NCBI GenBank assembly: GCA_022563855.1
Contig: JADFMN010000001.1
Coordinates: 372,001 to 436,000 of the forward strand
Direction of reading: 5' to 3'
Source: Armatimonadota bacterium
Lineage (GTDB): Bacteria > Armatimonadota > Fimbriimonadia > Fimbriimonadales > Fimbriimonadaceae
Length of the DNA stretch: 64,000 bases
Every line of letters starts with the position of its first letter. Position 1 is the first letter of the stretch. Shown here in pieces: positions 1,757 to 54,595 of this stretch. Below the pieces are notes generated by a model. The model was given only the letters and a program-made list of their open reading frames with translations, was not told the DNA's origin and searched no databases. Position numbers and translations under genes: made by a program.

Positions 1757-3094
1757 ATGAACGACCACACGCTGCGCATCTACGACTCTATCCTCGGCCT
1801 GCTCTCGAGCGTCGACAACCCAACTCCGCTGGTACGGCTCAACCGTGTCGTGCCTTTTCGGAACGCGCAGGTGTACGCCAAGCTCGAATGGTACAACCCA
1901 TTCGGGGCCGTCAAGGACCGGGTGGCCGCCAGCATGGTGGCGGACGCCGAGGAGCACCAGAGGATGGGAGCGGAGCAGCAGCTCGTAGAGCCCACGTCAG
2001 GCAACACCGGTTTCGCCCTCGCCATGCTCTCCAACGCCAAGGGGTACCACCTCACCACACCCCTGTCGATCGAGATACCGCTTGAGAAGCGCACGATGCT
2101 GCGGTTTTTCGGGGCCGATGTCATAGAGCTTGACGACACGCTCTGTCCGGCGCCTGGTGCGCCCGAGGGGGCGATCGCCAAGGCCGTGGAGATCGCTGAG
2201 CATCCCGGCTTCCATATGCTCAACCAGTACGCCAACGAGGCGAACCCGGACGCCCACTACAGCACGACGGGACCGGAGATCTGGCGCCAGACCGAAGGCC
2301 GGGTGACGCACTTCGTGGCCAGCCTTGGCACGTGCGGAACCATCACGGGAGCGGGACGATTTCTAAAGGAAAAAAGCTCCGAGGTCCAGGTCCTGGGCGT
2401 CCATCCCAGCGAGGGCCACGACATTCCGGGCGTGCGCAGCATCCGCCAGCTTGAACAGACCGAGCTGTTCCGCCCCGAACAGTATGACCGCCTGATCGAG
2501 GTCCACGATAAGGCTGCGTTCGACATGTGCCTTAGGCTCAACCGGGAGGAGAGCATCACCGCTGGACCGAGCTCCGGACTGGCTCTCGCGGGTCTGCTCG
2601 AGATGGTCCCAGACGAGCCGGGCAACCTCGCAGTGGTGGTCTTTCCCGACAGCGCATTCAAGTATCCGTCCTCGCTGGCGCGACATCTGCCGGGTCTCGC
2701 CGCCGCGCAGCCGCAGGGCGGAGGGCCCCGTGAGAAGCTGTTGGACCGAATGATCGAGAACGTGCGCGCCAGCGCGGCTCTGACCATCGACGCGGACGCC
2801 GCCCACGAACTTTGGCTACAAAGCAAGCCGTTCGTGATGGACGTCCGCCCCAGTGAACTGTACCGCGAGGCGCACATCCCCGGCGCCGTGAACAAGCCGC
2901 TCTCCGAGCTGGGCGAGGACCTCTCGGGGCTGCCCGAGGCTCTGGACGCACCCATCCTCAGCGTCTGCCAGCTCGGCAACGCATCGCTCTCCGGCGTCCT
3001 GTTCCTCAAGTCGCTCGGTTATACGAACGTGTTGAGCATCAAAGGGGGAACCCTCGGCTGGCGCGAGAAGGGCTTCGCCACGGATTCGGAATAA
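1757..3094 (+). CDS. Cysteine synthase-like PLP enzyme fused to a rhodanese domain
   Basis: Residues 1 to about 310 form a fold-type II PLP enzyme of the cysteine synthase/cystathionine beta-synthase group: NPFGAVKDR holds the likely Schiff-base Lys53, and TSGNTG (residues 80-85) is the substrate-binding loop. Residues about 345-445 form a rhodanese domain with Cys404 in VCQLGNAS as the candidate persulfide cysteine. The active loop lacks the basic residue usual in thiosulfate sulfurtransferases. At 445 aa it is a cysteine synthase plus about 110 residues. The fusion suggests that sulfide or persulfide is passed between halves, which is inference. An ATG at 1757 opens the frame; an overlapping frame from 1747 is a shadow. 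Confidence 0.85.
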   Translation: MNDHTLRIYDSILGLLSSVDNPTPLVRLNRVVPFRNAQVYAKLEWYNPFGAVKDRVAASMVADAEEHQRMGAEQQLVEPTSGNTGFALAMLSNAKGYHLTTPLSIEIPLEKRTMLRFFGADVIELDDTLCPAPGAPEGAIAKAVEIAEHPGFHMLNQYANEANPDAHYSTTGPEIWRQTEGRVTHFVASLGTCGTITGAGRFLKEKSSEVQVLGVHPSEGHDIPGVRSIRQLEQTELFRPEQYDRLIEVHDKAAFDMCLRLNREESITAGPSSGLALAGLLEMVPDEPGNLAVVVFPDSAFKYPSSLARHLPGLAAAQPQGGGPREKLLDRMIENVRASAALTIDADAAHELWLQSKPFVMDVRPSELYREAHIPGAVNKPLSELGEDLSGLPEALDAPILSVCQLGNASLSGVLFLKSLGYTNVLSIKGGTLGWREKGFATDSE

Positions 3095-3734: not shown

Positions 3735-4319
3735 TTACTCGCCACCTTGCTCGTCCATCCGCTGAATCGCCTCATTAAGCTCATCAGGCGTGTTCGCGCT
3801 TACGAATGCAGATGGTGCGAGACCTAGTTTCTCTAGCGCTGGCTCATCGACGACTAGCGCGTTCAACTCAGCGATGATGCGCTTCATCGACGGAGCGCTT
3901 ACGCGGGCACTCTCTTGCCGAAATCGAGCAAACACACTCGCGGAATACAACGCGCACAAGTACTGCTCTCGCCCGTTGATCGTTGGAACGACTGCGTCGC
4001 GCCCGACGATGAGCGGGAGGAACGCAGGAACGACGTCCGCGTTGAAACTGGGGATGTCGCACGAACAGACGAACACTGTTCCGTAAGATGGCATGAATTG
4101 GGACAGCGCGCTCGCAGGGCCTTGAAACTCCTCGCGGTCCGGCAAGAACGGCCGACCTCCTATCGGAGTTCTGCCGAGAACCGTGACCGGAACTCCAATC
4201 CGTTCGAACTCGGCGAGAATCCGCTCCGACATCGTGGCCTCGCCGACGACTATGCTCGCCTTGTCGGCGCCCATGCGCCTGCTGGCGCCTCCCGTGAGCA
4301 GGACCGCTTCAACATCCAT
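3735..4319 (-). CDS. mobA: Molybdenum cofactor guanylyltransferase MobA
   Basis: MobA transfers GMP from GTP to Mo-molybdopterin, giving the MGD form used by DMSO-reductase-family enzymes. The N-terminal nucleotide-binding signature LTGGASRRMGADK (residues 8-20) is diagnostic, followed by the GP...AL and CDIPSF blocks of the Rossmann-like fold. The 194 aa length matches the family. It is transcribed away from the moaA operon. A MobA in the cluster fits the need of the molybdoenzyme encoded at 54.6 kb. Confidence 0.93.
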   Translation of the reverse strand: MDVEAVLLTGGASRRMGADKASIVVGEATMSERILAEFERIGVPVTVLGRTPIGGRPFLPDREEFQGPASALSQFMPSYGTVFVCSCDIPSFNADVVPAFLPLIVGRDAVVPTINGREQYLCALYSASVFARFRQESARVSAPSMKRIIAELNALVVDEPALEKLGLAPSAFVSANTPDELNEAIQRMDEQGGE

Positions 4320-4490
4320 ACTGTATTAACTGACGCGGGATTCTGCGCCTGTATGACGAGAATCATACTCTTGGGTCACAAACGAGTTCAGAATTGAGTA
4401 GACGATTATGGGCTGGATGCCTTCACACTGCGTCGAGTCCGTGCAGCATAACCGCGAAGTTGCGGAAAGCTGGGCGACCCTGCGATTCCA

Positions 4491-4680
4491 GGTTGAAAGC
4501 TGATCTTGTCAGGCCCCATGGAATGTTTACAAAGAAGTAAGTGATAAAATGGATGCAGTGCCAAAAACCTCCGCAACACCGACGAGCAGATCGGCTCTTA
4601 CGTCCGGCACGCTTTCCCACTCCTTGAACGGCGAAGATTCGGAAGGGCTGGCAACGGTGTCGCGCGCTGTGGACGTTGGC
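4491..4680 (+). repeat. Copy of the crp/fnr upstream region and first ~42 codons
   Basis: From GGTTGAAA at 4491 the DNA follows the complement of 50239 down to about 50054, i.e. the CMD-crp intergenic region and the start of the Crp/Fnr gene. A 14-base identical run, TGTTTACAAAGAAG, sits before the start codon in both places and GTGATAAAATGGA covers both start codons. The encoded residues also match (M-D/E-AVP, TL..SL.GED...LATVS). Similarity fades after about codon 42. Confidence 0.85.
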
Positions 4681-5676
4681 ACGGAGACTGGGTCTGCCCC
4701 GCTGATGGATCGCCACGGTCGGCGGCACACTTACCTCCGCGTCTCGATAACGGATCGGTGCAACCTTCGCTGCCGGTACTGCATGCCTGCCGAGGGCATC
4801 GAGTGGACGCCCCGCGACCAGCTGCTCAGCTTCGAAGAGATCCAGCGCGTTGTCGCCGCCCTCGCCGAGGTCGGAGTGAACAAGGTTCGCATCACCGGCG
4901 GAGAACCAACTGTGCGGCGCGGCGTCGAAACACTGATCGAGTCTGTGGCCGGCACGCCTGGCATTACCGAAGTCTGCATGACCACAAACGGCACGACGCT
5001 GGGAAAGATGGCCGGCAGGTACCGAAGTGCTGGCCTGGACGTGCTCAACATCAGCCTCGACTCGCTCCGAGCGGACCGGTTTGAAGAGATAACGAGAACG
5101 AAAAAGTTTGATCAAGTCCTGCGCGGAATCGACGCCGCGCTCGAAGCGGGGTTCGCGCCGATAAAACTGAACGTCGTTGCTATGCGCGGAGTGAACGAAG
5201 ACGAGGTCTGCGACTTCGTAGAGTTCGTTCGCGACCGGCCGATCAACGTGCGATTCATCGAGTTCATGCCGTTCGAGGGCAACAGCTGGAGCCGCGCAAA
5301 GTTCCTCCCTTATCAAGAGATGATCTCAGACCTTGAGCGACGGTATAAGCTCACGCCGCTGCCGGAGCGACCAAATCAAGTAGCGAGAGATTTCTCCATC
5401 GAGGGATGCGAGGGGACCATCAGCTTCATCACCTCGATGTCGGAGAACTTCTGCGCGGGGTGCAACAGGATTCGCCTGACAGCGCAGGGCGACATCAAGG
5501 CGTGCCTGTTCATGACACCCGGAGCGCGCTTGCGCGAGCGATTGCGATCCGGAGCAGACAGCGAAGAAATCGTGGAAGTAGTACGTGGCGCAATCCTTCA
5601 GAAGTGGCCCGGCCACCCAGGGGCGGAAAACCTCCTATCCCTCAAAAACGCCAGTATGATACAGATCGGAGGCTGA
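4549..5676 (+). CDS. moaA: GTP 3',8-cyclase MoaA with a Crp/Fnr-derived N-terminal extension
   Basis: MoaA is the radical SAM enzyme that starts molybdopterin synthesis from GTP. The SAM cluster is CNLRCRYC (Cys71, Cys75, Cys78); the C-terminal cluster motif is FCAGCNRIRLTAQGDIKAC and the protein ends in the conserved Gly-Gly. Residues 1-42 are not part of MoaA: they match the start of the Crp/Fnr protein encoded at 49470-50180. A normal MoaA start exists at ATG 4705 (residue 53, MDRHGRRHTYLRVS), but its ribosome site is weak, so either start is possible. It heads the operon moaA-moaCB-moeA-moaD-moaE-tauE. Confidence 0.93.
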   Translation: MDAVPKTSATPTSRSALTSGTLSHSLNGEDSEGLATVSRAVDVGTETGSAPLMDRHGRRHTYLRVSITDRCNLRCRYCMPAEGIEWTPRDQLLSFEEIQRVVAALAEVGVNKVRITGGEPTVRRGVETLIESVAGTPGITEVCMTTNGTTLGKMAGRYRSAGLDVLNISLDSLRADRFEEITRTKKFDQVLRGIDAALEAGFAPIKLNVVAMRGVNEDEVCDFVEFVRDRPINVRFIEFMPFEGNSWSRAKFLPYQEMISDLERRYKLTPLPERPNQVARDFSIEGCEGTISFITSMSENFCAGCNRIRLTAQGDIKACLFMTPGARLRERLRSGADSEEIVEVVRGAILQKWPGHPGAENLLSLKNASMIQIGG

Positions 5677-5682
5677 TGAAAC

Positions 5683-6615
5683 GTGCGCGACGTGACACAC
5701 AAGGTCAACACCCTCCGGACCGCAACGGCGGTCGCCACTCTTCGAGCGCGGGCTGATACGATCAGCCGCATCAGAGACGGTAACTTGCCCAAGGGCGATG
5801 CGCTCACCGTCGCAAAGGTCGCCGGGATTCAGGCGGCAAAGGGCACGTCCGACCTGATCCCGTACTGCCACCCGATTCCGATCGAGTTTGCCGACGTTCG
5901 GTTCTCGTTTTCTGACGACGCTGTCGAAATCACGGCTACGGTCAAAACGATCTACAAGACCGGCATCGAGATGGAGGCGCTGACCGCCGCCTGCATCGCA
6001 GCGCTTACGTTGTACGACATGACGAAGATGATCGACGACGACGTCTTGATCGAGCAGGTCAAGCTATTGGAGAAGCGCGGCGGCAAGTCGGACTTCCCTG
6101 CTGTTCCAGAGGTCGGCGTGGCGATCATCACGGTCTCGGATACTGCGTCTTCTGGCGAACGCGAGGACATCTCCGGGCCGATTGCTGCGGGCGTTTTGAC
6201 CGAGCAGGGCGCGACTCTTGTCGATTCGAAGATCGTCTCCGATGACGCCGATGAAATTGAAATCGCTGTCCGGAGTTTCGTTAAGTCTCCAAGTGTTTCG
6301 CTCATAGTTTTGACAGGCGGAACCGGGGCCGGTCCGCGCGACAACACTCCGGAGGCGGTTCGACGAATCTTCGACAAGGAGCTGCCAGGAGTAGCCGAAC
6401 AGATGCGCAGATACGGTCAGGACAGAACTCCGTTCGCGATGCTCAGCCGGTCGGTCTGCGGAATCGCCGGCGACTCCGTGGTTCTCTGCCTGCCTGGTTC
6501 GCCCAAGGCGGTGGAAGAGGGGCTACGCGCGGTGCTTCCCCACCTGATGCACGTGATCGCCGTGCTCGGTGGCGCAGGGCACGACGAGCTTGTCGCGGCA
6601 GAGGATGAGCTGTGA
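5683..6615 (+). CDS. Bifunctional MoaC-MoaB/Mog molybdopterin biosynthesis protein
   Basis: Residues 1 to about 139 are MoaC (cyclic pyranopterin monophosphate synthase): KGDALTVAKVAGIQAAKGTSD, LIPYCHP, TGIEMEAL and the terminal KRGGKSDF. Residues about 147-310 are MoaB/Mog (molybdopterin adenylyltransferase), with the LTGGTGAGPRDNTPEA MPT-binding signature. Bifunctional MoaC/MoaB proteins are known elsewhere. The start is a GTG at 5683, preceded by GGAGG about 10 bases upstream and 6 bases after the moaA stop. It overlaps moeA by 4 bases, so translation is probably coupled. Confidence 0.93.
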   Translation: MRDVTHKVNTLRTATAVATLRARADTISRIRDGNLPKGDALTVAKVAGIQAAKGTSDLIPYCHPIPIEFADVRFSFSDDAVEITATVKTIYKTGIEMEALTAACIAALTLYDMTKMIDDDVLIEQVKLLEKRGGKSDFPAVPEVGVAIITVSDTASSGEREDISGPIAAGVLTEQGATLVDSKIVSDDADEIEIAVRSFVKSPSVSLIVLTGGTGAGPRDNTPEAVRRIFDKELPGVAEQMRRYGQDRTPFAMLSRSVCGIAGDSVVLCLPGSPKAVEEGLRAVLPHLMHVIAVLGGAGHDELVAAEDEL

Positions 6616-7829
6616 TCTCGTTCGACGATGCCCTTCGCATCGTGCTCGAGTCCTGCGGCGTCCTCGGTTCTGAAGATGTTGCAGTTTCAAACTGCGCGGG
6701 AAGGCACCTCGCCGAAGACGTGACGTCCACGATCAGCCTGCCGATCTTCGACAACTCTGCTGTCGATGGTTTCGCGATTCACGCTGAAGATGTCGCTCGT
6801 GGCTGTAAGCAGTTGAAAGTTCTCGGCACGATCTTCGCCGGCGATGATCCGGCTGTTTTTGTCCTCGAACAAGGGACAACGATACGCGTCATGACCGGTG
6901 CAGGCATCCCCAGCGGAACGAGCGCGGTCGTCATGCAAGAGGATGTGCAACACGACGGCGAGGTTGCGGTTCTCAATTCGGTCGATGTAAGTGAAAGAGC
7001 AAACATCAGGCGCGCGGGCGAGGAGATTCGACCAGGCGACACCGTGCTATCCGCCGGCCTGTGTTGTAATCCTGCGACTGCGGCGGCGCTCGCAACTCTT
7101 GGTCGCACGACGGTCACGGTTCACAAAAGACCCTCCGTCGGAATCATGGTGACCGGTGCAGAACTGGTCCAACCGGGGGGCGAGTTGCAACCTGGGCAGA
7201 TATTCGAATCCAACTCTATCGGTCTTGCTGCCGCAGTTCGAGCGCACGGCATCAACGACGTTGTTGTCGAAACAGTTGGAGACGGCGTTAGTGAGACAGT
7301 TGCTGCTTTCCAACGACTAGCTAAACAGTGTGACATCGTAGTTTCTTCTGGCGGCGTGTCCGTCGGTGAGCGCGATCTTGTTCGAAACGTATACTTGGAA
7401 CACGGAGTGAAAGAGTTGTTTTGGAAGGTCGCTATGAAGCCTGGAAAACCAGTGTTCTTTGGCAAGTCTAGTGCCTGTTTGGTATTTGGCCTACCGGGGA
7501 ACCCCGTTAGCGCGCTTGTGACCTTCGAAACCCTCGTCACTCCCGCGATCAGAAAGATGTCGGGATCGCTGCATCCGGTCGCACCGCGCACTCGCATTAC
7601 CCTGACCAAACACATCAGGCGCAAACCGGGCCGACTCGAGTTTGTCCGTGCGACGACCGAGTATCGCGACGGGAAGCCGTTTGCGACGCCGTTGGACCGC
7701 CAAGGCTCGCACATGACCTCCGGTCTCGCGCTTGCGGACAGGCTTCTAATCGTGCCTCTAGATGCCGAGTGCATCGAGGCCGGAACCGAACTTGATAGCA
7801 TGACAATCGGTTCGGGAGGTAGCCGATGA
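6612..7829 (+). CDS. moeA: Molybdopterin molybdenumtransferase MoeA
   Basis: MoeA inserts molybdate into adenylylated molybdopterin. The 405 aa protein has the family blocks DNSAVDGFAI, GAGIPSGTSAVV, RRAGEEI, GIMVTGAELV, SSGGVSVGERD and GLPGNPVSALVTF in the expected order. The GTG start lies in the four-base overlap GTGA with the stop of moaCB. The stop overlaps the moaD start in ATGA, consistent with a single coupled transcript. Confidence 0.94.
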   Translation: MISFDDALRIVLESCGVLGSEDVAVSNCAGRHLAEDVTSTISLPIFDNSAVDGFAIHAEDVARGCKQLKVLGTIFAGDDPAVFVLEQGTTIRVMTGAGIPSGTSAVVMQEDVQHDGEVAVLNSVDVSERANIRRAGEEIRPGDTVLSAGLCCNPATAAALATLGRTTVTVHKRPSVGIMVTGAELVQPGGELQPGQIFESNSIGLAAAVRAHGINDVVVETVGDGVSETVAAFQRLAKQCDIVVSSGGVSVGERDLVRNVYLEHGVKELFWKVAMKPGKPVFFGKSSACLVFGLPGNPVSALVTFETLVTPAIRKMSGSLHPVAPRTRITLTKHIRRKPGRLEFVRATTEYRDGKPFATPLDRQGSHMTSGLALADRLLIVPLDAECIEAGTELDSMTIGSGGSR

Positions 7830-8068
7830 AATCCGTCCAGCTCACACACTTCGCGCTTTTGCGAGACCAACGCGGCCTCAGTTCAGAGACGCACGAAACT
7901 TCTGCCGAGACGGTCGGGGAACTGTACGATGAGTTGGCAGCTCTGTACAGCTTCACTCTTCCGCGAAACTTCGTCAAGGCGGCGCTGAACAGTGAGTTTG
8001 TCGCCATGGATACACCGTTTGAAAATGGCGACGAGATCGTGTTCCTCCCACCGGTAGCCGGAGGGTGA
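7826..8068 (+). CDS. moaD: Molybdopterin synthase sulfur carrier subunit MoaD
   Basis: This 80 aa ubiquitin-like protein ends in AGG, the Gly-Gly tail that is thiocarboxylated to carry sulfur for the dithiolene of molybdopterin. FENGDEIVFLPPVAGG is the typical C-terminal block. It overlaps moeA by four bases and is followed one base later by moaE, its synthase partner. No MoeB/ThiF-type activating enzyme is in the window. Confidence 0.92.
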   Translation: MKSVQLTHFALLRDQRGLSSETHETSAETVGELYDELAALYSFTLPRNFVKAALNSEFVAMDTPFENGDEIVFLPPVAGG

Positions 8069-8069
8069 T

Positions 8070-8489
8070 GTGTTTCGAATAACCGACCAGCCGATCGATC
8101 CGCCGAATGCGCCCGGCCCGTCAGCTGGCGCGCAGGTCGTGTTCACTGGACTGGTCCGGAATCACAACGAGGGGCGCACAGTCGAGGCATTGGAATACGA
8201 AGCGTTCAACGAGCTGGCGGTCAAAGAGGGAGAGAAGATCTTGCAAGAAGTGCTGAAGCGGTTCGACGTTGAGTCCGTCCTCTGTGTTCATCGCGTCGGG
8301 AAACTGCAGATCGGCGACGTCGCAGTGTTGGTCGCGTGTTCGTCCGCGCACCGGCGCGCAGCGTTCGACGCTTGCCAGTACGTGATCGACGAAGTCAAAA
8401 AGCGAGTGCCGATCTGGAAAAAGGAGATCTACGAAGACGGCGAGTCGGAGTGGCTGAACGCGGCGGATGGGGCAAAATGCAGCCCTTGA
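8070..8489 (+). CDS. moaE: Molybdopterin synthase catalytic subunit MoaE
   Basis: MoaE converts cyclic pyranopterin monophosphate to molybdopterin with thiocarboxylated MoaD. Family blocks are GAQVVFTGLVRNHNEGR, LEYEAFNELA, HRVGKLQIGDVAV, SAHRRAAFDAC and the active-site lysine segment VPIWKKEIYEDG. The GTG at 8070 follows GGAGGG. Its last 23 bases overlap the start of the TauE gene in another frame. Confidence 0.93.
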   Translation: MFRITDQPIDPPNAPGPSAGAQVVFTGLVRNHNEGRTVEALEYEAFNELAVKEGEKILQEVLKRFDVESVLCVHRVGKLQIGDVAVLVACSSAHRRAAFDACQYVIDEVKKRVPIWKKEIYEDGESEWLNAADGAKCSP

Positions 8490-16518: not shown

Positions 16519-17487
16519 TCACTTCCGCTTTAGTATCATGAACGGAAAGCCGCCTCTTGCCGGATCATGCGCCACGAGGGTCGTCCCGTCCTCGGTCAGG
16601 CGCAGCTTCGCTGTCATGGCGTCGAGTTCCGTGGCCTCCATCTGTATGGCCTCTACCGCAAAAAGGGGTGGCAAGAGAAGCAAAGTCGCGCCGTCGTCGC
16701 TCAGTTCCCAGGTGCCGAACGGCATTCCGTCCCCGAACCACCGATAAGTCATGTCGTCCGAGAGCTGTAAACTGTCCGTCTCGCTGTCGTCTTCCTCCTT
16801 CATCCTCTGCACTTCAGCCTCGCTCCACATCCCGCGCATGTCGGCCCAATATGCGTCCATATCGAACCGGAAAGTCCAGTCGCCGACGAAATCCGCAACC
16901 TCCCCGCTCTCCGCATAGGTGTACGGGGCGTCAGGAACGGGCATCTCTACCACAGCCGATCCAGGTCTCGAGTAGATGACGCTGCCCACACTCATCGCTG
17001 AGTCCGTCATCGATTGCCTGTTCACCGAAATCTCGAGGCTCATTCGCGGCTGGAGCGTGCCGGGCGTAATCTTCTCTTCAGTGACTATTGTTTCGCCTGT
17101 CACGGGGTCGTACGTCGAAGATCCCTCGGAGATCTCACCGCTCAGCATTGAGATCGTGATTGACTCGCCGTCCGGGCTCAGCTCCCAGGTCCCTTCGCTC
17201 ATTGTTTCGACGGGAGCTCCGTCGATTCCGATCAACGCAGTCCCGTCGTCGTTCAACTCGAGGAACTGTACGATTCTCGCGTAGTCTCGGCGCGTGGTCC
17301 TCGCTAGCACTTCGCGGTCGCCGTCGGGGTACGACTCGTGCAAGACGTCGATATACTCTTCGCTGATCTTCGTATGGCCGACCCACTTGCCTGTAAAGTC
17401 CGGCTGGGCGGCGACTTGCTCAGAATCCTTGTCGCATGCGACGGCCAGAACGGAAACAGCGAAGACGGCGTAAAAGAGTAGTCTCAT
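16519..17487 (-). CDS. Lipoprotein of unknown function, paralogue 1
   Basis: ATG 17487 gives a signal peptide with a lipobox LAVAC (cysteine near residue 18); the frame upstream to 17538 is non-coding. The 322 aa protein contains DFTGKWVGHT near its N-terminus and two WELS.DG repeats, suggesting two lipocalin-like or META-like beta domains, each judged by a GTWELSPDG core. It is about 45% identical to the lipoprotein at 20464-21438 along its length. Function is unknown. Confidence 0.72.
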   Translation of the reverse strand: MRLLFYAVFAVSVLAVACDKDSEQVAAQPDFTGKWVGHTKISEEYIDVLHESYPDGDREVLARTTRRDYARIVQFLELNDDGTALIGIDGAPVETMSEGTWELSPDGESITISMLSGEISEGSSTYDPVTGETIVTEEKITPGTLQPRMSLEISVNRQSMTDSAMSVGSVIYSRPGSAVVEMPVPDAPYTYAESGEVADFVGDWTFRFDMDAYWADMRGMWSEAEVQRMKEEDDSETDSLQLSDDMTYRWFGDGMPFGTWELSDDGATLLLLPPLFAVEAIQMEATELDAMTAKLRLTEDGTTLVAHDPARGGFPFMILKRK

Positions 17488-17536
17488 ATCCCTGTTCTCG
17501 TCACCGGAGTATACGTCATGTCGCACCCAGAACTCC

Positions 17537-17632
17537 ACCCCTTGAGCCGGGAGGGACAGGGGGATCCTTCGTCAAGCTCAGGACAGGCCTTCGCCCTCGG
17601 GACGGGTCTTGAAACCGTCAGCCGCGCCCACC
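17537..17632 (+). repeat. Modular intergenic repeat A, copy 7
   Basis: A full-length copy nearly identical to copy 6. Confidence 0.85.
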
Positions 17633-18451: not shown

Positions 18452-18549
18452 CAACCCTCCACACTGCGAGTGTGGAGGGATGAAGGGACAGGGGGACAAA
18501 CCCTTGAGACTGGTCCTTCGAGAAGCTCAGGATAACCGTCAGCCGTGCC
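18452..18549 (+). repeat. Modular intergenic repeat A, copy 9, with hairpin module
   Basis: The first module is replaced by a perfect hairpin, CCCTCCACACT-GCG-AGTGTGGAGGG, followed by AGGGACAGGGGGACAAACCC, TCCTTCGAGAAGCTCAGGAT and AACCGTCAGCCGTG. Confidence 0.83.
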
Positions 18550-20463: not shown

Positions 20464-21438
20464 TCACTGACGCTTGAAGCTCATGATTGGGCCGCGGAAG
20501 CCGGTCATGTCATGCGCCACGAGGGTTGTCCTATCCTCGGTCAGGCGCAGCTCAAATTTCATGTCGTACCCCATGGCCTCCATCTGTGCGGCCTCTTCTT
20601 CCGTAACGGGCAGCTCGAGAAACGCGGTCGCGCCATCCTCGCTCAGCGTCCAGCTGCCCTCCTGCACAATTTCGCCATCGATCATGCGGTAGGTCATGTC
20701 GTCGAAGATCTGCAAGGTGCCTTTCGCGCTCCCGAATTCGTCCAACATCTTCTGCACGTCCTCTTCGCTCGTCATGCCGCGCATGCCGTCCCACATCGCG
20801 TCAATCCCTTCGAAGCTCATGTCCCACTCTCCGACGAAGTCTGCGACGTCGCCGTTCGCGGCATAGGTGAACGGGTCATCGGGCACGTACTTTTCCATCG
20901 TGACCGTTCCAGGCCTCGTGTACGTAATCCTGCCGGCTCCCGGCACCGAATCGGTCACGATCAGCGACTGACCGTCCTTTACGACCCTGAGGCGCATCAT
21001 CGGTTCGGGCTGACCGGGGTCTATCCTTTCAGTCTCCTGGATCTCGCCAGTCACAGGATCGACGACCCCAGCTCGGGTTATCGTCTCTCCGCTCAGCATA
21101 GAGACCGTAATCAAATCTCCGTCCTCGCTCAGCTCCCAGGTTCCCTTATACATGCCGACCGCGACGCCGATTACGCCCATAGACATCGTCCCGTCTTCAT
21201 TCAGTTCGAGCCGAAAGACCATTGCCTGGCTCTTGCGCATCGACCTCTCGAGCGCGTCTCGGTCGCCCTCGGGGTACATCTCGTGCATAACGTCGATATC
21301 CTCGTCGGTGATCGTCGTGTGGCCCTCCCACTTGCCGGTGAAGTCCGGCTGGGCGGCGACTGGCTCAGGTTCCGCGTCCTTGTTGCACGCGACGGTCAGC
21401 AACGAGACGACGAATACGGCGAAATAGAGCTTTCTCAT
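20464..21438 (-). CDS. Lipoprotein of unknown function, paralogue 2
   Basis: ATG 21438 gives a signal peptide with lipobox LTVAC. The 324 aa protein parallels the one at 16519-17487: QPDFTGKWEGHT near the start, KGTWELSEDGDLITVSMLSGE, DFVGEWDMSF and EGSWTLSEDGATAFLELP. Each half looks like a small beta barrel built around a G.W.LS.DG core. The two paralogues lie in equivalent positions after the two PEP-CTERM genes, pointing to a segmental duplication of about 6 kb. Confidence 0.72.
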   Translation of the reverse strand: MRKLYFAVFVVSLLTVACNKDAEPEPVAAQPDFTGKWEGHTTITDEDIDVMHEMYPEGDRDALERSMRKSQAMVFRLELNEDGTMSMGVIGVAVGMYKGTWELSEDGDLITVSMLSGETITRAGVVDPVTGEIQETERIDPGQPEPMMRLRVVKDGQSLIVTDSVPGAGRITYTRPGTVTMEKYVPDDPFTYAANGDVADFVGEWDMSFEGIDAMWDGMRGMTSEEDVQKMLDEFGSAKGTLQIFDDMTYRMIDGEIVQEGSWTLSEDGATAFLELPVTEEEAAQMEAMGYDMKFELRLTEDRTTLVAHDMTGFRGPIMSFKRQ

Positions 21439-21593
21439 TTCCCTGCGGTCCTCTCTGGAGTATACGACGACGACAGCAGGATGAAGAGAATCAATCACTC
21501 GGACTCTCCGATCTGGACAAATACATTCCACGGCGGCGGGAACGTATGGATGTAGAATCAACCCTGCGCCGCTAGCGATGGCGGCGCGAGCCC

Positions 21594-26995: not shown

Positions 26996-27070
26996 TGGAG
27001 CCATCGAGCGGATTCGAACCGCTGACCTGCTGTTTACGAAACAGCTGCTCTACCACTGAGCTACGATGGC
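26996..27070 (-). tRNA. tRNA-Thr (CGT)
   Basis: The reverse strand folds as a 75-base tRNA with acceptor GCCATCG/CGATGGC, D arm GCTCAGTGGTAGAGC, anticodon stem GCTGT/ACAGC with loop TTCGTAA, T arm GCGGTTCGAATCCGC and an encoded CCA. The anticodon CGT reads ACG threonine codons. Confidence 0.95.
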
Positions 27071-27462
27071 TTCCGCGTAGAACAAGATTACCAGTTCGCG
27101 GCTGGGCCGCGGCTCTACTTGCCTACAGGTCAGGCGTGGTGGTGTACCAAACGACCGACCCGCCCACTCCGCTTATGCTGAACCTCGACGGCGCCGTGCC
27201 TATGTAGCAGCTGTCGGCTACCACCCGACGCAAACTAGTCCCCTCCCACGAGCGAGGGCGAGGGCTAGGGAGATGGGGCAAGCAGACAAAGTCCCTTCTA
27301 TTCGGCAGCATAATTTCGTTGGATGAAATCCAAAGCGGAAAGGACTCTAGAGCTTGGACCCGTCACCCAGCCTCTCCCTCAGGGGGGAGAGGAGTTGCCT
27401 GCGATTGGCAGAATGGCGGAAAACGCACCGCTCGGAGCCCTAATCCGCTGTCGGGACAGCCG
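27071..27462. other. Gene-free stretch before hppD
   Basis: No coding sequence is supported. It contains two members of the CTCTCC-type palindromic repeat family: CCCCTCCCACGAGCGAGGGC with AGGGAGATGGGG (27238-27277) and CCTCTCCCTCAGGGGGGAGA (27372-27391). The motif AAAGTCCCTTCTATTCGG at 27290 recurs in related form at 37069 and 45951. Confidence 0.5.
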
Positions 27463-31178: not shown

Positions 31179-33002
31179 TCAGTCTTGCCTCTCACCGGCA
31201 TCGCCGAGGTCGCGCCCTTCGGACGCGCCGCTCTCCATCACATACCCAGGTATGTCGCTGAGCGTGATCGAATAGTCCGTCGCCTTGCCGCTCGATGTCA
31301 GCACGATCAAGAACGTGCTCGGCGCACGAACTTTGAGAAGCCCGAACTGGTTCATGTCGTCGATGCGAGTCAGCGACAGCGGTGCAGGTCGGCCCTTCTC
31401 ATCGCGGATCGAGACGGTGTACGAAAAGCTCGAGGTCTTCCAATGTATGAACAGTGGCTGATCCGGTGTAGCGGTAAATTTCCAGACCTCGACCTTTCCG
31501 GTTGAAAAGTTGCCTTGCGCGGGCGAGTCCATTCCAAACTCCCGAGCGCTGAACACCTGCCGGTTCAAGGTGTAGGCACCGCCACCGCCGTTACCCTTTG
31601 CAGACACGGCCACCAAGTACCGACCGGGCTTCTCGACGATCATGCTCCAGCTCGCGGAGGTCTGGTCAAGCGACATGGACACGGTCCGGACTTCACGAAG
31701 TTCTGGATCGCGAACGATCAGCCGCTCAGAGAACTGTGTCGTGCCCGTCACAAACGTCATAACGTCGCCAGCTTCCGCATTGAACTCCCAATAGTCGGTG
31801 TCCGCAATCCTCAAATGGCTCTCGATCTCCTGATCGAGCGAGAATTCCTTGGCCGCTGGACGGACCGACATCGTATACGTGTTCCCCTTCCCTCCTGCGC
31901 CGTCCGACACCAGCCACAGCACGGCGTTGCGCTGGATGACATACACTCCTCTGCGCGAATCGCCTTCACGCGCTGGCAGCGCGATGAACGCAGGGCCTTT
32001 AACTTCCTCCTCTTCGTCCGGTACATGCGGAAAGAACGGGTTTTTCTCCGGATCTTGCATGTCGTACTTTGAGATATCCGGTTGCTCTGCGAGCACAAAC
32101 CTTGAGCCAAAGGAAAGCTCAGGAGTAGACACTTCCAAGAAGTCGCCTTTCTTGACGGAGAGCGACCAGAGTGAAAGCGAATTGACTGGCGCCTGGGCCG
32201 AGTACCGTCCGTCTTCGCGTTCTAGTTGGTGTACTGGGATGTCCTCGATCGTAGCCCGCACCTTCCCGTTCCGATTGCCGGTCGTTCTGGCTACTACGTA
32301 GTAGTCGCCATCGACCGCTGCCATCACGGTATTTGGCACGACAGATTCGATCGGCTTGATCAGGTTAATGTCTGGCAGTCCGGTCGGCGAGATAAACTGA
32401 TCGATTCTGATCGGTGGGTAAACGTTCAAGTTCGGCCCCCCGTAATGAACCCGCTTGATCTCGCCTGCCTTCATCGAAATCCGTAAGAAGAACCTCTTGC
32501 CAGCCTCGATTTCCATCTCTGTGACTCTTCCTGAGAAGATGTCAAGGCAGTCGTACGTTTTCGTCCGCAAGAAGAACTGACCTCCCGCCGCGTCCTCGAA
32601 ACACCGTGCGCGCAACTTGTAGTCTCCGGCCTCTTCGCACCGCCAGATAAGAAACGGGCGCTGGTCGCCGGGGTAGCGGTCGTCGTTGTAAATGAGTACC
32701 TCTTCTGCTCCGTCGTCGTCGATAAAGACGATCTGCAGCGCGGGATCGAACGCATCGCTGCGCGCGGACGCTATCACGACCTGGCCCTTCTTCAAGGTCA
32801 GTGACCACTCGCTGAACCCGCCGGGGGTCAGGATGTTTCTGATCTCCGGCGGATTGAAGTATGAAGCTACTGCGCTGTCGATCGCACGGACCTTAGCGTT
32901 GTAACGATCCTGTATCGTGCCAGCCTGTCTTCCCTGTCCAAGAACTACTGTGCTAAAGGCACAGGCTGCTATTGCTGTCGCTATGTGAATGATTCTTTTC
33001 AT
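31179..33002 (-). CDS. Large secreted protein, tandem paralogue 1
   Basis: ATG 33002 opens a signal peptide (MKRIIHIATAIAACAFSTVVLGQ); the frame up to 33071 is non-coding. The 607 aa mature protein is built of repeated beta-sandwich units resembling bacterial pre-peptidase C-terminal domains: SEWSLTLKKGQVVIASARSD, NSLSLWSLSVKKGDFLEVS, TDYWEFNAEAGDVMTFVTG and GKVEVWKFTATPDQPLFIHW, each with a W-[SE]-[LF]-x(3)-[KA]-G-D/Q core. At least four units are visible. No catalytic domain is recognised. The next gene upstream is a paralogue about 40% identical along its length. Confidence 0.75.
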   Translation of the reverse strand: MKRIIHIATAIAACAFSTVVLGQGRQAGTIQDRYNAKVRAIDSAVASYFNPPEIRNILTPGGFSEWSLTLKKGQVVIASARSDAFDPALQIVFIDDDGAEEVLIYNDDRYPGDQRPFLIWRCEEAGDYKLRARCFEDAAGGQFFLRTKTYDCLDIFSGRVTEMEIEAGKRFFLRISMKAGEIKRVHYGGPNLNVYPPIRIDQFISPTGLPDINLIKPIESVVPNTVMAAVDGDYYVVARTTGNRNGKVRATIEDIPVHQLEREDGRYSAQAPVNSLSLWSLSVKKGDFLEVSTPELSFGSRFVLAEQPDISKYDMQDPEKNPFFPHVPDEEEEVKGPAFIALPAREGDSRRGVYVIQRNAVLWLVSDGAGGKGNTYTMSVRPAAKEFSLDQEIESHLRIADTDYWEFNAEAGDVMTFVTGTTQFSERLIVRDPELREVRTVSMSLDQTSASWSMIVEKPGRYLVAVSAKGNGGGGAYTLNRQVFSAREFGMDSPAQGNFSTGKVEVWKFTATPDQPLFIHWKTSSFSYTVSIRDEKGRPAPLSLTRIDDMNQFGLLKVRAPSTFLIVLTSSGKATDYSITLSDIPGYVMESGASEGRDLGDAGERQD

Positions 33003-33373
33003 TTCGATCTTCCTGTCCTCTGTGACGGGATGGCCTGCCGCGACGTTACCGTGAGGCCTACTTCGTCCCACAGCCTGATTACAGTGCTCTCAGACGTCAG
33101 AATCAAAACCAACTTTGTGCAGTGCGCAAGGCCTTAGGTAAATCCTCGTGCGCTGTGCAAGAGCTGGATTCGCAGCACAATACGTCTCGAATCAAATCGA
33201 TTCTCGGATCTCGGGCTCATAGCCCCCTTCCCCCTGCATCGGAGGAGGAAGGGGGTTGGGGGAAGGAGGTTTCGGAAGCGCGAGAGCCGGCGCCCATCAC
33301 GCGGCTCGCGTGGTCCTTCGATCCGCTCAGGATGACGCGCTCGCCCTTCCACAACTTGATGCTTCGGTCAATC
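33003..33373. other. Gene-free stretch between the tandem paralogues
   Basis: It contains an inverted repeat block AGCCCCCTTCCCCCTGCATC/GGAGGAGGAAGGGGGTTGGG (33218-33265), similar to the one at 3.6 kb, then a single TCCTTCGATCCGCTCAGGATGA unit (33313-33334) of the repeat A type. No coding sequence is seen. Confidence 0.5.
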
Positions 33374-35197
33374 TCACCTCCCCGGCAGGTCGCGCAGCGT
33401 GATCGAGTAGTTCGACTTCCCGCCGTTCGAGACCAGCACGATCAGATACGTCGTTGGCTCATTCACCTTCAGCACTCCGTACTTGTTGTTGCCGTCTACG
33501 GTCGTCAGCGGCAACTCGATCGCGACGCCTCTTTCGTCGCGAATCGAGATCGTGTACGCCCAGTTGGAGGATCTCCAGTGCACGAGCAGCGGTTCGTCCG
33601 GCGTGGCCATGAACTTCCAGACCTCAGCCCGACCGCTTGAGAAGTCGCCTTGTGCAGGAGACCCCTTTCCAAACTCCCGGGCGCCGAACACGTGACGCTC
33701 GAGCGTGTACGGACCGCTCCCTCCGTCGCCGATCGCCGAGATTGCCACCAAGTATCTGCCCGGCTTTCTGACGATCAAGCTCCAGTCGGTCTCCGTCTCG
33801 TCAACGGTAGCGTACGCGCTCTCGGTCACGCTCAGGTCTGGGTCGTAAACGATGACCCTTTCTGCAAATCCTTTCGCCTTGGTCTTGAACGTCATGACGT
33901 CCCCCACCTCGGCGTCGAACGCCCAGTAGTCTGTGTAACCGATCCGCAGTTGGTCTTTGCGCTCGCTCACAGCTGTGAAGTCTCTGGCGGCCGGCGTGAT
34001 CGACAGCGTATACGTCTCGCTCGTACCTCCGAGACCGTTCGACGCCAGCCAGAGCGTCGCGTCGCGTCTGACGACGAACACCGTTATCCGTGGGTCACGG
34101 GCGCGCCCTGGGAGCTTGACAAATGCCGGCCCCTCATCGTCCTTTTCATCCACCGGTTGCGGGAAGAACGGATTGGTGTCGTTCTCCCCCACATCGTACT
34201 CAGAGATGTCCGGGTGCTCGGCGAGGGCGAACCGAGAACTCAGCGAGAGCCCCGGTGTGGAAACCTGGAGGATATCGCCCTCTTTGACGTCGAGCGTCCA
34301 GAGCGAAAGCGTGTTTCTAGATGCCGACACCGTGTATCTGCCCTCCTTTCTCGATAGCGCTACTTCAACGATATCTTGAATGCGGGCTCGCAGTTTCCAG
34401 TCGCTCGGGCCGCTGGGTCTGACGATAACGTAATAGTCCCCATCGACAGCGGCCATTACAGCGTCGCTGATCACGTTCCTCATCGGCCTAGTGAGCTCGA
34501 TGTCCGGCAACCCCGTCGGAGAGATCACGCCCTCGATTCTCCCCCAGACGTACTCTTTGCGGTTCGGAAGTTCAATGATGACCTTCTTGATCTGTCCTGC
34601 CTTCATTGGGATGCGAATCAGGATCTTCTCCTGACCGTCAAGTTGCATATCTACGGGTTTCTCCGACAGTAGGTCCATTGAGTCGTAGATCCTCATTCGC
34701 AAGAAGAACTGCCCGCCGGACTTGTCGCGGAAGCACCGTGCCCGGAGTCTGTACTCGCCGTCCCTTTCGCACCGCCAGATCAGAAGCGGTCGTTGGTCGC
34801 CGGGGTAACGGTCATCGTTCTCTGCGAGAACGATCCCCTCGGCCTCCTCGTCCTCATCCTCCTCTAAGAAAATGACCTGCAGCGCGGGGTCGAAGGCGTC
34901 GCTCCGCGCGTCTGCGATCAGGACCTGCCCAGCCTCTAGCTTCAGCGTCCACTGGCTAATCTCGCCTGTCGTCAAGATGTTCTTGATCTCGTTCGTCTCT
35001 AGGTACGCGTCCACTTCGCTATCTATGAGGAGTACAGCCTCTTCGTAGGTGTCGTTATCGGATCCGCCGCCCTGTCCAAAGCCGCCGCCGAAGCCGCCCC
35101 CACCTCCCCCGCCGAAGCTGCCGCCCCCCTGTCCGAGAACAGCTGTGCTCAAGGCACAGACTGCGATAACCGTCAAAAAGTAAAAGGTTCGTCCCAT
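33374..35197 (-). CDS. Large secreted protein, tandem paralogue 2, with Gly-rich N-terminal linker
   Basis: A signal peptide (FYFLTVIAVCALSTAVLGQ) is followed by a Gly/Ser/Phe-rich linker of about 25 residues (GGGSFGGGGGGGFGGGFGQG) absent from the neighbour. The rest aligns with the protein at 31179-33002: NDDRYPGDQRPLLIWRCERDGEY, QFFLRMRIYD, NTLSLWTLDVKEGDIL, YTDYWAFDAEVGDVMTFKT and GRAEVWKFMATPDEPLLVHW. Repeated beta-sandwich units suggest a surface or periplasmic scaffold. A set of 10-bp phased repeats lies 75-135 bases upstream. Confidence 0.75.
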   Translation of the reverse strand: MGRTFYFLTVIAVCALSTAVLGQGGGSFGGGGGGGFGGGFGQGGGSDNDTYEEAVLLIDSEVDAYLETNEIKNILTTGEISQWTLKLEAGQVLIADARSDAFDPALQVIFLEEDEDEEAEGIVLAENDDRYPGDQRPLLIWRCERDGEYRLRARCFRDKSGGQFFLRMRIYDSMDLLSEKPVDMQLDGQEKILIRIPMKAGQIKKVIIELPNRKEYVWGRIEGVISPTGLPDIELTRPMRNVISDAVMAAVDGDYYVIVRPSGPSDWKLRARIQDIVEVALSRKEGRYTVSASRNTLSLWTLDVKEGDILQVSTPGLSLSSRFALAEHPDISEYDVGENDTNPFFPQPVDEKDDEGPAFVKLPGRARDPRITVFVVRRDATLWLASNGLGGTSETYTLSITPAARDFTAVSERKDQLRIGYTDYWAFDAEVGDVMTFKTKAKGFAERVIVYDPDLSVTESAYATVDETETDWSLIVRKPGRYLVAISAIGDGGSGPYTLERHVFGAREFGKGSPAQGDFSSGRAEVWKFMATPDEPLLVHWRSSNWAYTISIRDERGVAIELPLTTVDGNNKYGVLKVNEPTTYLIVLVSNGGKSNYSITLRDLPGR

Positions 35198-44123: not shown

Positions 44124-44198
44124 GCCGCCTTAGCTCAGGGGTAGAGCAGCTGTTTTGTAAACAGCAGGTCACCCGTTCGAATCGGGTAGGCGGCTCCA
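44124..44198 (+). tRNA. tRNA-Thr (TGT)
   Basis: A 75-base cloverleaf: acceptor GCCGCCT/AGGCGGC, D arm GCTCAGGGGTAGAGC, anticodon stem GCTGT/ACAGC with loop TTTGTAA, T arm CCCGTTCGAATCGGG and encoded CCA. The TGT anticodon reads ACA and other threonine codons. Confidence 0.96.
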
Positions 44199-45761: not shown

Positions 45762-46175
45762 CGCAACCAGCTTCCACACCTCTCCCCATGAGACCGTTCT
45801 ACTAAGGCGTCTTCAGTGGAGAGTCCGCAGCGAACAGATGTTAGGCGAGGGGTTCAAGCTCTCGAGTGCGGTGTAGCAGAAGCGCCACCCTCCATGGACC
45901 GCAGGCCATTCCCTCTCCCCATGAGGGATAGGGTGAGGGGTTCAAGCGACAAAGTCCTTTCCGCTTAGTCTTCTTCCAACGAAAGAATGCGGAAAATTTG
46001 AAGGGACTTTTTCTGTTTGGACCCCCTCCCTAACCTTTGCGCGGCAAGACTCTCCACCGGAGAGGTCTTGGCGGCAAATCCCGAGGCACCGTGGGAGGGG
46101 AGTACCTTGCGGCGGGCGGCACGGGTAAGTCGCTGCAAAGCCCGCGCCGTCAGAAGGATTTCTCGTCACCAGTCT
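45762..46175. other. Gene-free stretch with CTCTCC-type repeats
   Basis: It holds CCCTCTCCCCATGAGGGATAG-type arms (45911-45940), the AAAGTCCTTTCCGCTTAGTC motif (45951-45970) shared with 37069-37089, a long imperfect inverted repeat with GAAGGGACTTT (45999-46009) and a GC-rich hairpin GACTCTCCACCGGAGAGGTC (46050-46069). No coding sequence is supported. Confidence 0.5.
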
Positions 46176-49469: not shown

Positions 49470-50180
49470 CTACCTTAAGTACTCCTCGAGCACACGCACA
49501 TCCAGAATTGTAACGAACCGGTGATCGCTTTCGATGATCCCGTTCTTCTGCCACCGGCTCATCACACGGATCGTCGACTCAACGGTGGTTCCCGCCATCT
49601 CGCCGATGTCCTGCCTCGTCAGGGGCACCTGAATCGTCACACCTTTCTCAGACTCCTTGCCGTACGACTCGCTGAGCAGCATGAGAATGAGCGCGATGCG
49701 CTCGTCGACCTTGCCCGTAGACATCTTGGCCATCATGTCCATCGTCTGCCGCAGCCTGTTGGTCGTGCGGCGCAAAAGCTGGTTCTTGAACTCTATGCGG
49801 CCGTCAAAAATTGGCATGAAGTCGGCCTTCGGGATCTTGAGGTACCACATGTTGCAGACCGCCCTCGACTCCAGCGGACATCCGGTTCCCTCGACCGTGC
49901 CGAGAAGGCCAAATATCTGGCCCGGCCCCATGATCTCGGACGTCACCTCGTGGCCGTTCGCCAGGCTCTGCACCATCTTGACGAAACCCACGCCGACCAG
50001 CCCGTAAAAGTCGACCTCGTTCCCGCGCATCCAGATCGTTTCCCCACGCTCGGCGTACGCCATGTGCGACACCGTCGCCAGCTCGTCCAAGTCTTCGCCC
50101 GTCAAGGAATTGAAGAGCGTGCTGGACCTGAGGGCCGCGATGTTCGTCGGCCTTTCGGGAGCTTGTGGCACTGCTTCCAT
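49470..50180 (-). CDS. Crp/Fnr-family transcriptional regulator
   Basis: ATG 50180 (MEAVPQAPERP) gives 236 aa. An N-terminal cyclic-nucleotide-binding-type beta barrel (GETIWMRGNEVDFYGLVGVGFVKM, GPGQIFGLLGTVEG) and long dimer helix lead to a winged helix with recognition segment GTTVESTIRVMSRWQ, the FNR-like E..xxR arrangement. No N-terminal cysteine cluster is seen, so it is not an oxygen-sensing FNR. It follows the CMD gene by 53 bases. Candidate sites ATGA-N6-TCAT occur at 50587, 54472 and 54537. Its 5' region is duplicated at moaA. Confidence 0.9.
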   Translation of the reverse strand: MEAVPQAPERPTNIAALRSSTLFNSLTGEDLDELATVSHMAYAERGETIWMRGNEVDFYGLVGVGFVKMVQSLANGHEVTSEIMGPGQIFGLLGTVEGTGCPLESRAVCNMWYLKIPKADFMPIFDGRIEFKNQLLRRTTNRLRQTMDMMAKMSTGKVDERIALILMLLSESYGKESEKGVTIQVPLTRQDIGEMAGTTVESTIRVMSRWQKNGIIESDHRFVTILDVRVLEEYLR

Positions 50181-50233: not shown

Positions 50234-50545
50234 TCAACCCGCCATCGCTTCCTCGATCCAACGCAGGCCAGCCATCATCGTCGGGAATCCGACGGTCGTA
50301 ACGGCGAGCATCACGGCGTGGCGGACCTCTTGCTCGGTTGCTCCAGCTTCGATGGCCTTGCGGCAGTGGCTTCGTACCGCGCTCTCAAGGCACGCGCCTA
50401 GCGAGATGCCGATTTTGACCAGCTCCGCGTGCTTCCTTGTCAGCGGCCCTGAGTCGAGCGTCGCCTCGCCCAGCTTCTGGTAGGCATCGCCAATTTCGGG
50501 GTTCTTTTGCATGAACTCTACGTAATGTGAGGGTATCCGGGACAT
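50234..50545 (-). CDS. Carboxymuconolactone decarboxylase (AhpD-like) family protein
   Basis: A 103 aa (from ATG 50545; ATG 50560 adds five residues) all-helical protein of the CMD family: LTRKHAELVKIGISLGACLESAVRSHCRKAIEAGATEQEVRHAVMLAVTTVGFP. The AhpD C-x-x-C-x-x-x-H site is replaced by ACLESAVRSHC, so peroxidase activity is uncertain. It shares an operon with crp and a divergent promoter region with the decarboxylase gene. Confidence 0.85.
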   Translation of the reverse strand: MSRIPSHYVEFMQKNPEIGDAYQKLGEATLDSGPLTRKHAELVKIGISLGACLESAVRSHCRKAIEAGATEQEVRHAVMLAVTTVGFPTMMAGLRWIEEAMAG

Positions 50546-50586
50546 GTTCGTATCCTTCATTCTCGATTCATTTCTGACCCAGGACT

Positions 50587-50600
50587 ATGATTCCCGTCAT
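50587..50600. promoter_or_regulatory. Candidate Crp/Fnr site between CMD-crp and the decarboxylase gene
   Basis: ATGATTCCCGTCAT has the TGA-N6-TCA spacing of Crp/Fnr operators. Its centre lies 60 bases before the decarboxylase start and about 40 before the CMD start, so it could serve either direction. Confidence 0.55.
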
Positions 50601-50653
50601 AGAAACGAATTTTCCTGTGTCGGAGAATACAGTATGGATGTCGAAGCAGAACG

Positions 50654-54437: not shown

Positions 54438-54471
54438 GGCTAGATTCTTGACGCGCCGCAAGAGTGCATCT

Positions 54472-54485
54472 ATGACGCCCGTCAT
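54472..54485. promoter_or_regulatory. Candidate Crp/Fnr site upstream of narK
   Basis: ATGACGCCCGTCAT is a perfect inverted repeat around CC with TGA-N6-TCA spacing. Its centre is 41 bases before GTG 54437, a class II activator distance if transcription begins near that codon. Confidence 0.65.
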
Positions 54486-54536
54486 AGCCCAGGACCATGC
54501 CGCATTTTCGAGCATCATGGACTCTTTGTTCCAGAT

Positions 54537-54550
54537 ATGACGGGCGTCAT
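54537..54550. promoter_or_regulatory. Candidate Crp/Fnr site upstream of the molybdoenzyme operon
   Basis: ATGACGGGCGTCAT is a perfect palindrome. A -10-like AATACT lies at 54573-54578, placing a start about 41 bases from the dyad centre, as in class II FNR-type promoters, and 11 bases before ATG 54596. Confidence 0.7.
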
Positions 54551-54595
54551 AGTTCGGACTCTTGACGCACCAAATACTTACATCACACGATCCTC

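Follow-up and report, generated by a model that had tools for sequence, protein, structure and literature searches.

The window analysed here, a stretch of 64,000 nt corresponding to bases 372001-436000 of contig 1 of a draft genome (3.18 Mb, 22 contigs), contains two related loci (Table 1). Locus 1 has the order mobA, promoter, CMD stub (CMD', a remnant of a carboxymuconolactone decarboxylase family gene), crp stub (crp'), moaA, moaC-mog and moeA. MoaA matched Pfam Radical_SAM and Mob_synth_C and scored 374.6 bits against TIGR02666, above the cut-off of 284.05. MobA matched Pfam NTP_transf_3, and its TIGR02665 score of 53.5 bits was under the cut-off of 151.85. The end of the CMD' stub was out of the CMD frame, while the moaA reading frame was fused to the head of a crp/fnr-family gene with no intervening stop, ATG 4705 being M53 of this frame. 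At 1757-3094 we also found a pyridoxal-phosphate enzyme with a fused rhodanese domain.

Locus 2 has the order ddc, mobA stub, promoter, CMD and crp. Its regulator matched Pfam cNMP_binding (41.4 bits) and HTH_Crp_2 (61.2 bits), which places it in the Crp/Fnr family. It could not be named as Fnr, Dnr or NnrR, the best NCBIfam scores being 58 bits against cut-offs of 228-300. The CMD of locus 2 likely starts at ATG 50545, judging from homology with the sister genome G031 and from the Shine-Dalgarno score. One scan of viral contigs with this Crp found no relative. A scan of genome contigs with MoaA gave 80 loci, none of them from a near relative; the best match was 52%, a value found for a Chthonomonas record. 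A palindromic repeat, ACCCTCCACACT..GAGT.TGGAGGGATGA, was represented by four copies (at 18454, 19352, 20282 and 49414), one of them just downstream of crp.

Table 1. Coordinates of genes, stubs, repeat blocks and putative promoter elements at the two loci, in positions of the window.
Feature	Position	Strand	Remarks
Locus 1
mobA (molybdenum cofactor guanylyltransferase-like)	3735-4319	-	intact; divergent from the moaA operon
repeat block 1	4306-4462	+	mobA start (14 nt), divergent promoter, CMD 5' part; matches 50647-50491
-10-like hexamer GTTAAT	4325-4330	-	22-27 nt after the dyad, towards mobA
Crp/Fnr-type dyad TATGACGAGAATCATA	4352-4367		between mobA and CMD', also so placed in G031 and G090
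-10-like hexamer CAGAAT	4389-4394	+	faces moaA; class II spacing, 22-27 nt past the dyad
CMD' stub	4408-4503	+	31-aa open frame; CMD N-terminus, internal deletion, frame change
repeat block 2	4513-4663	+	leader of crp with ~38 of its codons; matches 50216-50066
crp' stub	4549-4668	+	continuous with the moaA frame; GTG 4657 and GTG 4669 are candidate internal starts
moaA open frame	4549-5676	+	crp-derived head included; homology to MoaA begins near residue 45-52
moaC-mog fusion	5683-6615	+	Pfam; Moco operon downstream of moaA
moeA	6612-7829	+	Pfam; Moco operon
moaD	7826-8068	+	Pfam; Moco operon
moaE	8070-8489	+	Pfam; Moco operon, whose part after moaA spans 5683-8489
Locus 2
crp/fnr-family regulator	49470-50180	-	intact; ATG at 50180
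CMD	50234-50560	-	intact
dyad TATGACGGGAATCATA (minus strand)	50586-50601		counterpart of the 4352 dyad
mobA stub MDVEAER*	50634-50657	+	overlaps the ddc start by ATGA
ddc (pyridoxal-dependent decarboxylase)	50654-52606	+	Pfam; mobA neighbour in the sister genus (loci L069, L167)

The first-pass annotation had described a parallel between 4491-4680 and 50239-50054. Alignment of the two regions bore this out and gave a larger parallel than the one described. The second repeat block was gapless, with 119 of 151 positions identical (79%; E 5.8e-30 in a search of the 3.18 Mb genome). The first block, which the annotation had missed, was identical at 115 of 157 positions (73%; E 9.2e-20 genome-wide). 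The common leader GTTTACAAAGAAG and the start codon were present at both loci. In its full extent, the parallel ran from the fifth mobA codon through the mobA/CMD promoter and the 5' part of CMD, and resumed after a gap, taking in the CMD end, the leader of crp and about 38-39 of its codons. Relative to locus 2, locus 1 lacked ~210-220 nt of CMD. The two copies are inverted relative to each other and lie 45-46 kb apart. They were the only two in the genome, not the several dispersed copies that would mark a mobile promoter; no third copy of comparable strength was found genome-wide, the next best match having an E of 0.15. As had also been claimed, the head of MoaA resembles the N-terminus of the regulator (residues 1-39, 54% match to the crp reading frame, tblastn E 6e-6 in the window) and is followed by normal MoaA, placed by the annotation from residue 53 and by the TIGR02666 match from residue 52.

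In a survey of 61 genomes (this one and 60 relatives), crp was matched at E<=1e-20 in 33 and MoaA at E<=1e-40 in 37. Among 85 genomes of the family, crp was found at E<=1e-60 in 49. Both genomes of the sister genus g31 (G031 and G090), which have the crp genes nearest to that of the window, carry all of the genes in a single locus. There, ddc and mobA lie on one strand, divergent from CMD, crp and moaA on the other, with mobA in the equivalent place and a complete crp directly upstream of moaA, behind CMD and the divergent mobA promoter. The G031 locus goes on with moaC-mog and moeA, like that of the window. Elsewhere in the family, crp, CMD, mobA and moaA repeatedly occur in looser groupings, as in G025, G012 and G017, and such a grouping was also seen in G038, from another family of the order. 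Among the MoaA loci inspected for upstream neighbours, most of them with a 1.5 kb flank, only those of G031 and G090 had a same-strand crp immediately upstream of moaA.

The annotation had interpreted the head of moaA as a regulator fragment captured in front of the gene. The sister genomes speak against this reading, since the complete crp already stands upstream of moaA in both; the site, expected to be empty in relatives had a capture occurred, is filled there by complete CMD and crp. The form of capture that we weighed, in which a partial copy of the CMD-crp promoter and head from locus 2 was inserted between mobA and moaA, bringing new control, draws on the presence of complete genes at locus 2 and of mere stubs at locus 1, and on the two window copies being each other's nearest kin. 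However, the slot, order and orientation of the stubs exactly match those of the complete genes in G031 and G090, and an internal CMD deletion and a chance in-frame join at the moaA start would still be needed. Moreover, the copied DNA holds the first codons of mobA, although the complete mobA is at locus 1, so locus 2 must once have had mobA there too. Formally, partial copying of locus 2 into locus 1 is conceivable, but we regard it as unlikely.

Phylogenetic trees placed the window genes close to the sister genus, in agreement with descent from a common ancestor with it. The window crp grouped with G031 and G090 with support of 100/98 (49 rows), as did CMD (100/99, 15 rows) and mobA (89/83, 12 rows). 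In the moaA tree (22 rows) the window grouped with its congener G001 (99/98) and then with G031 (92/79). Neither the mobA grouping nor the placement of G031 in the tree of moaA reached the support mark of 95/80. Before tree building we removed rows that contained stops or had coverage below 75%; the G090 moaA was left out of its tree as it is cut by a contig end, and a few rows were the same gene entered through two loci. The higher identity of crp (67-68%) and CMD (65%) to G031, against 50% for moaA and 44% for mobA, could suggest that the ddc-CMD-crp locus is a xenologue from the sister genus and that the native locus 1 lost CMD and crp later. We consider this very improbable. The moaA and mobA trees likewise point to g31, so the lower identities of these genes reflect faster change, and loci 1 and 2 have a common leader sequence that is absent from G031.

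The two loci are also nearer to each other than to G031, which contradicts a transfer from that genus. Over 38 codons of the crp heads, dN was 0.25 and dS 0.39 between the loci, and dS to G031 was 1.09 and 1.20 for the two window copies; window moaA and G001 moaA differed by a dS of 1.49, all these dS values being rough since the stretches are short and saturated. Since less divergence separates the two copies than separates either of them from G031, or the moaA genes of the two congeners from one another, the duplication is younger than both splits. Relative-rate tests with G031 as outgroup gave 11 amino-acid changes in crp' against 2 in the locus 2 crp (p 0.022). At second codon positions the counts were 8 and 0 (p 0.008), and at third positions 6 and 5. 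CMD' had 9 amino-acid changes against 0 (p 0.004), and the mobA stub of locus 2 was too short for the test. The locus 1 stubs have lost protein constraint and locus 2 has kept it; the concentration of amino-acid changes in the stubs is the pattern expected of relics. Such codon-position patterns of long separate evolution also argue against misassembly or strain mixture as the source of the parallel, an explanation which we consider the least probable of all. The genome is a draft in 22 contigs, but copies that have diverged by 21-27% cannot arise by misjoining the reads of one strain, and each half makes sense against G031.

As the simplest reading, and a highly probable one, we therefore infer that a single ddc-mobA-CMD-crp-moaA locus was split by an inverted duplication followed by complementary deletions. 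Three marks of a split operon were found, namely flanks that are homologous between the two loci, an outgroup in which one locus holds all genes in this order, and stubs under relaxed constraint. Jointly, loci 1 and 2 carry each gene once, with the CMD, crp and mobA stubs in the expected places. The ancestor would have had one locus, with ddc and mobA reading one way and CMD, crp, moaA, moaC-mog and moeA the other, and a Crp-type site between mobA and CMD. The stretch from ddc to crp would have been duplicated and inverted about 46 kb away, after which deletions would have removed mobA from locus 2 and, from locus 1, ddc, the greater part of CMD and the crp body. Through the crp deletion, the moaA start would have come to follow crp codon ~39 in frame. 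Most likely, then, the Crp-like head of moaA is a relic and not a captured piece, the scar of a crp gene that once stood between moaA and its promoter. The promoter driving moaA would be the original one, retained when the duplicated cluster was pared down. We searched for a ddc remnant beside mobA at locus 1 and for a moaA remnant beside crp at locus 2, and found neither. No relative with two complete copies or an intermediate state was found in the loci read; the only congener among the genomes surveyed, G001, is 68% complete and had no crp match at E<=1e-20 and no CMD match at E<=1e-5. At L073 6057-6460, its moaA lies ~370 nt behind an oxidoreductase gene with no dyad, mobA, CMD or crp nearby, so intermediates are not seen.

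Where translation of moaA would now begin was assessed against relatives, 22 of whose 23 MoaA frames were readable. In at least 20 of the 22, a start codon lay 12-38 residues before the LR.S.TDRC motif. In the window this distance is 10 residues for ATG 4705, 22 for GTG 4669 (like the G031 ATG) and 26 for GTG 4657. A Crp-like MoaA extension in relatives, which the annotation had named as evidence against its own reading where Crp lacks it, was seen in none of the 22 frames by eye, four of which were also compared by tblastn. Likeness of the MoaA head to the N-termini of G032, G038, G009 and G017, whose alignments had appeared to extend into the head, proved on checking by tblastn to be due to chance. 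Predicted ribosome pairing was -2.1 kcal/mol at ATG 4549, where 67% of random positions do as well, and -6.2 kcal/mol at GTG 4657, where 11% do. It was -3.0 at GTG 4669, -3.1 at ATG 4705 and -1.0 at the intact crp start, with values of -9.5 to -11.6 at the moaC, moaD and moaE starts. Around the start codon, 39 of 43 bases are common to both loci, but a shuffled match pattern equalled this in 25% of 20000 trials, so that the identity is no evidence for use of ATG 4549. Similarly, 52-74% of simulated stubs with 15-31 changes stayed open; an open crp' frame is thus expected by chance in over half of the simulations and is no evidence for translation. The transcript 4401-4720 was predicted to fold no better than shuffles (z 0.57). 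AlphaFold2 (14 rows) left residues 1-47 of the fused MoaA unordered with pLDDT below 50, partly by construction, because the other rows do not cover these residues.

It is less likely than not that the crp-derived head is in use, either within a fused protein or, more mildly, as the bearer of a new ribosome site. It is possible that the fused frame is translated as MoaA with a 42-residue N-terminal extension, a disordered Crp-derived tail of ~40 residues whose translation would begin at the former crp start codon. The regulator's translation signal would then set the dose of the first Moco enzyme. Alternatively, changes in the dying crp head may have made the GGAAGGG ribosome site before GTG 4657, in which case regulator coding DNA would have been turned into the leader of moaA.

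Continuity of control is suggested by the promoter. Between mobA and CMD, both window copies and both sister genomes have a TATGAC-N4-ATCATA dyad, and the exact pattern occurred in this genome only at loci 1 and 2. With up to one mismatch there were 17 strand matches genome-wide, against 2 for a reversed control, and with up to two mismatches 10 matches in the window against 1.1 expected. Hexamers resembling a -10 element were found at class II spacing in all four directions across the two loci; with a hexamer 22-27 nt past it, a dyad is centred at -41.5, as in class II promoters. Hexamers with at least 4/6 matches to TATAAT lay 22-27 nt past the dyad in 15 of 44 flanks (both sides of 22 dyads from the window and relatives), against 0-6 at the 19 other offsets tested. 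At two loci of G027 and in G017, moaA likewise has a dyad closely upstream, the hexamer position at both G027 loci being unlike a -10.

The repeat blocks and the dyad uphold the earlier statement that moaA sits behind crp-type promoter and leader DNA. Because a Crp-type dyad and its -10-like hexamers persist in both copies, moaA probably remains in the regulon of the locus 2 regulator; as each half retains its own dyad, the regulator probably still controls both, and would bind these putative sites and co-regulate the two loci. Thus moaA is probably an old target that the duplicated promoter has kept as such. The annotation had further suggested that Moco supply could thereby be synchronised with Crp-linked nitrate genes. 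The Moco genes and a molybdoenzyme cluster do share the Crp-type dyad, and hence putatively their control, but synchronisation as a new state was not supported: crp is already upstream of moaA in G031 and G090, and locus 1 has their gene order with CMD and crp cut to stubs, so the coupling of Moco genes to the regulator looks inherited.

At 54471-54551, two symmetric dyads (TATGACG-N2-CGTCATA) occupy the promoter between two divergent genes. One encodes a NarK-like transporter (203 bits against a cut-off of 311.7) and the other a molybdopterin oxidoreductase of the DMSO reductase type (469 bits against 984.75), both scores being under the cut-off. Adjoining the molybdoenzyme, at 57041-58948, is an unusual fusion, a 635-aa protein with Fe-S and cytochrome c domains and a C-terminal QmoC-like stretch (residues 438-572). 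The symmetric dyad was found elsewhere near NnrS-family, nitronate monooxygenase-family and Fe-S protein genes. A role in nitrate metabolism is likely for this putative regulon. It shares with the Fnr, Dnr and NnrR regulons for nitrate and NO a Crp/Fnr-family protein, a dyad at -41.5 and candidate targets including an NnrS gene and the molybdoenzyme cluster with its NarK-like transporter. The dyad here, TATGAC-N4-GTCATA, a putative site, differs from the FNR consensus, TTGAT-N4-ATCAA. It points to a testable candidate regulon of Moco synthesis, the NarK-like transporter and molybdoenzyme cluster, and NnrS in a little-studied family.

The proposed event is a good example of an already known kind, the splitting of an operon by segmental duplication and reciprocal loss. 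It shares with other such cases two copies of a locus, each gene kept once and stubs at the deletion points. Here, what survives in duplicate is the divergent promoter together with the dyad, and crp' was joined in frame to moaA by one of the deletions. Putatively mobile promoters, or promoter propagation, likewise place one promoter sequence before different gene sets, as seen here ahead of two sets. Unlike these, the present promoter has two copies only, tied to gene stubs in ancestral order, with no sign of self-movement. The case offers a stepwise view of an operon being split while both halves keep their control through a duplicated promoter, with different losses in each copy. It also shows how a foreign-looking gene head can arise without capture, and the trap of taking the shorter copy for a derived insertion. 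In Helicobacter pylori, DNA duplication associated with inversion (Furuta et al. 2011, cited in PMC3120642) reportedly also involves a distant inverted duplicate followed by gene loss. The mark of such an event would be an inverted duplicate at each end of an inverted segment; the copies here, inverted and 45-46 kb apart, enclose a 46 kb segment that is a candidate for such an inversion. Titles and abstract openings from the literature on operon splitting, Fimbriimonadaceae nitrate and Moco genes, mobile promoters and inversion duplication, and on duplicated operons with vestigial genes and CMD with Crp, MoaA or nitrate, held no description of this locus.

The window contains other repeats. 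Two more inverted-repeat pairs lie 17-19 kb apart, one at 26996-27070 and 44124-44198 (84%) and one at 27258-27327 and 45971-46040 (74%). Two candidate frames with no Pfam match (16519-17538 and 20464-21561) have several common blocks of 73-84%. Two adjacent long frames, also with no Pfam match (31179-33071 and 33374-35197), have 259 nt in common at 71% and are tandem paralogues.
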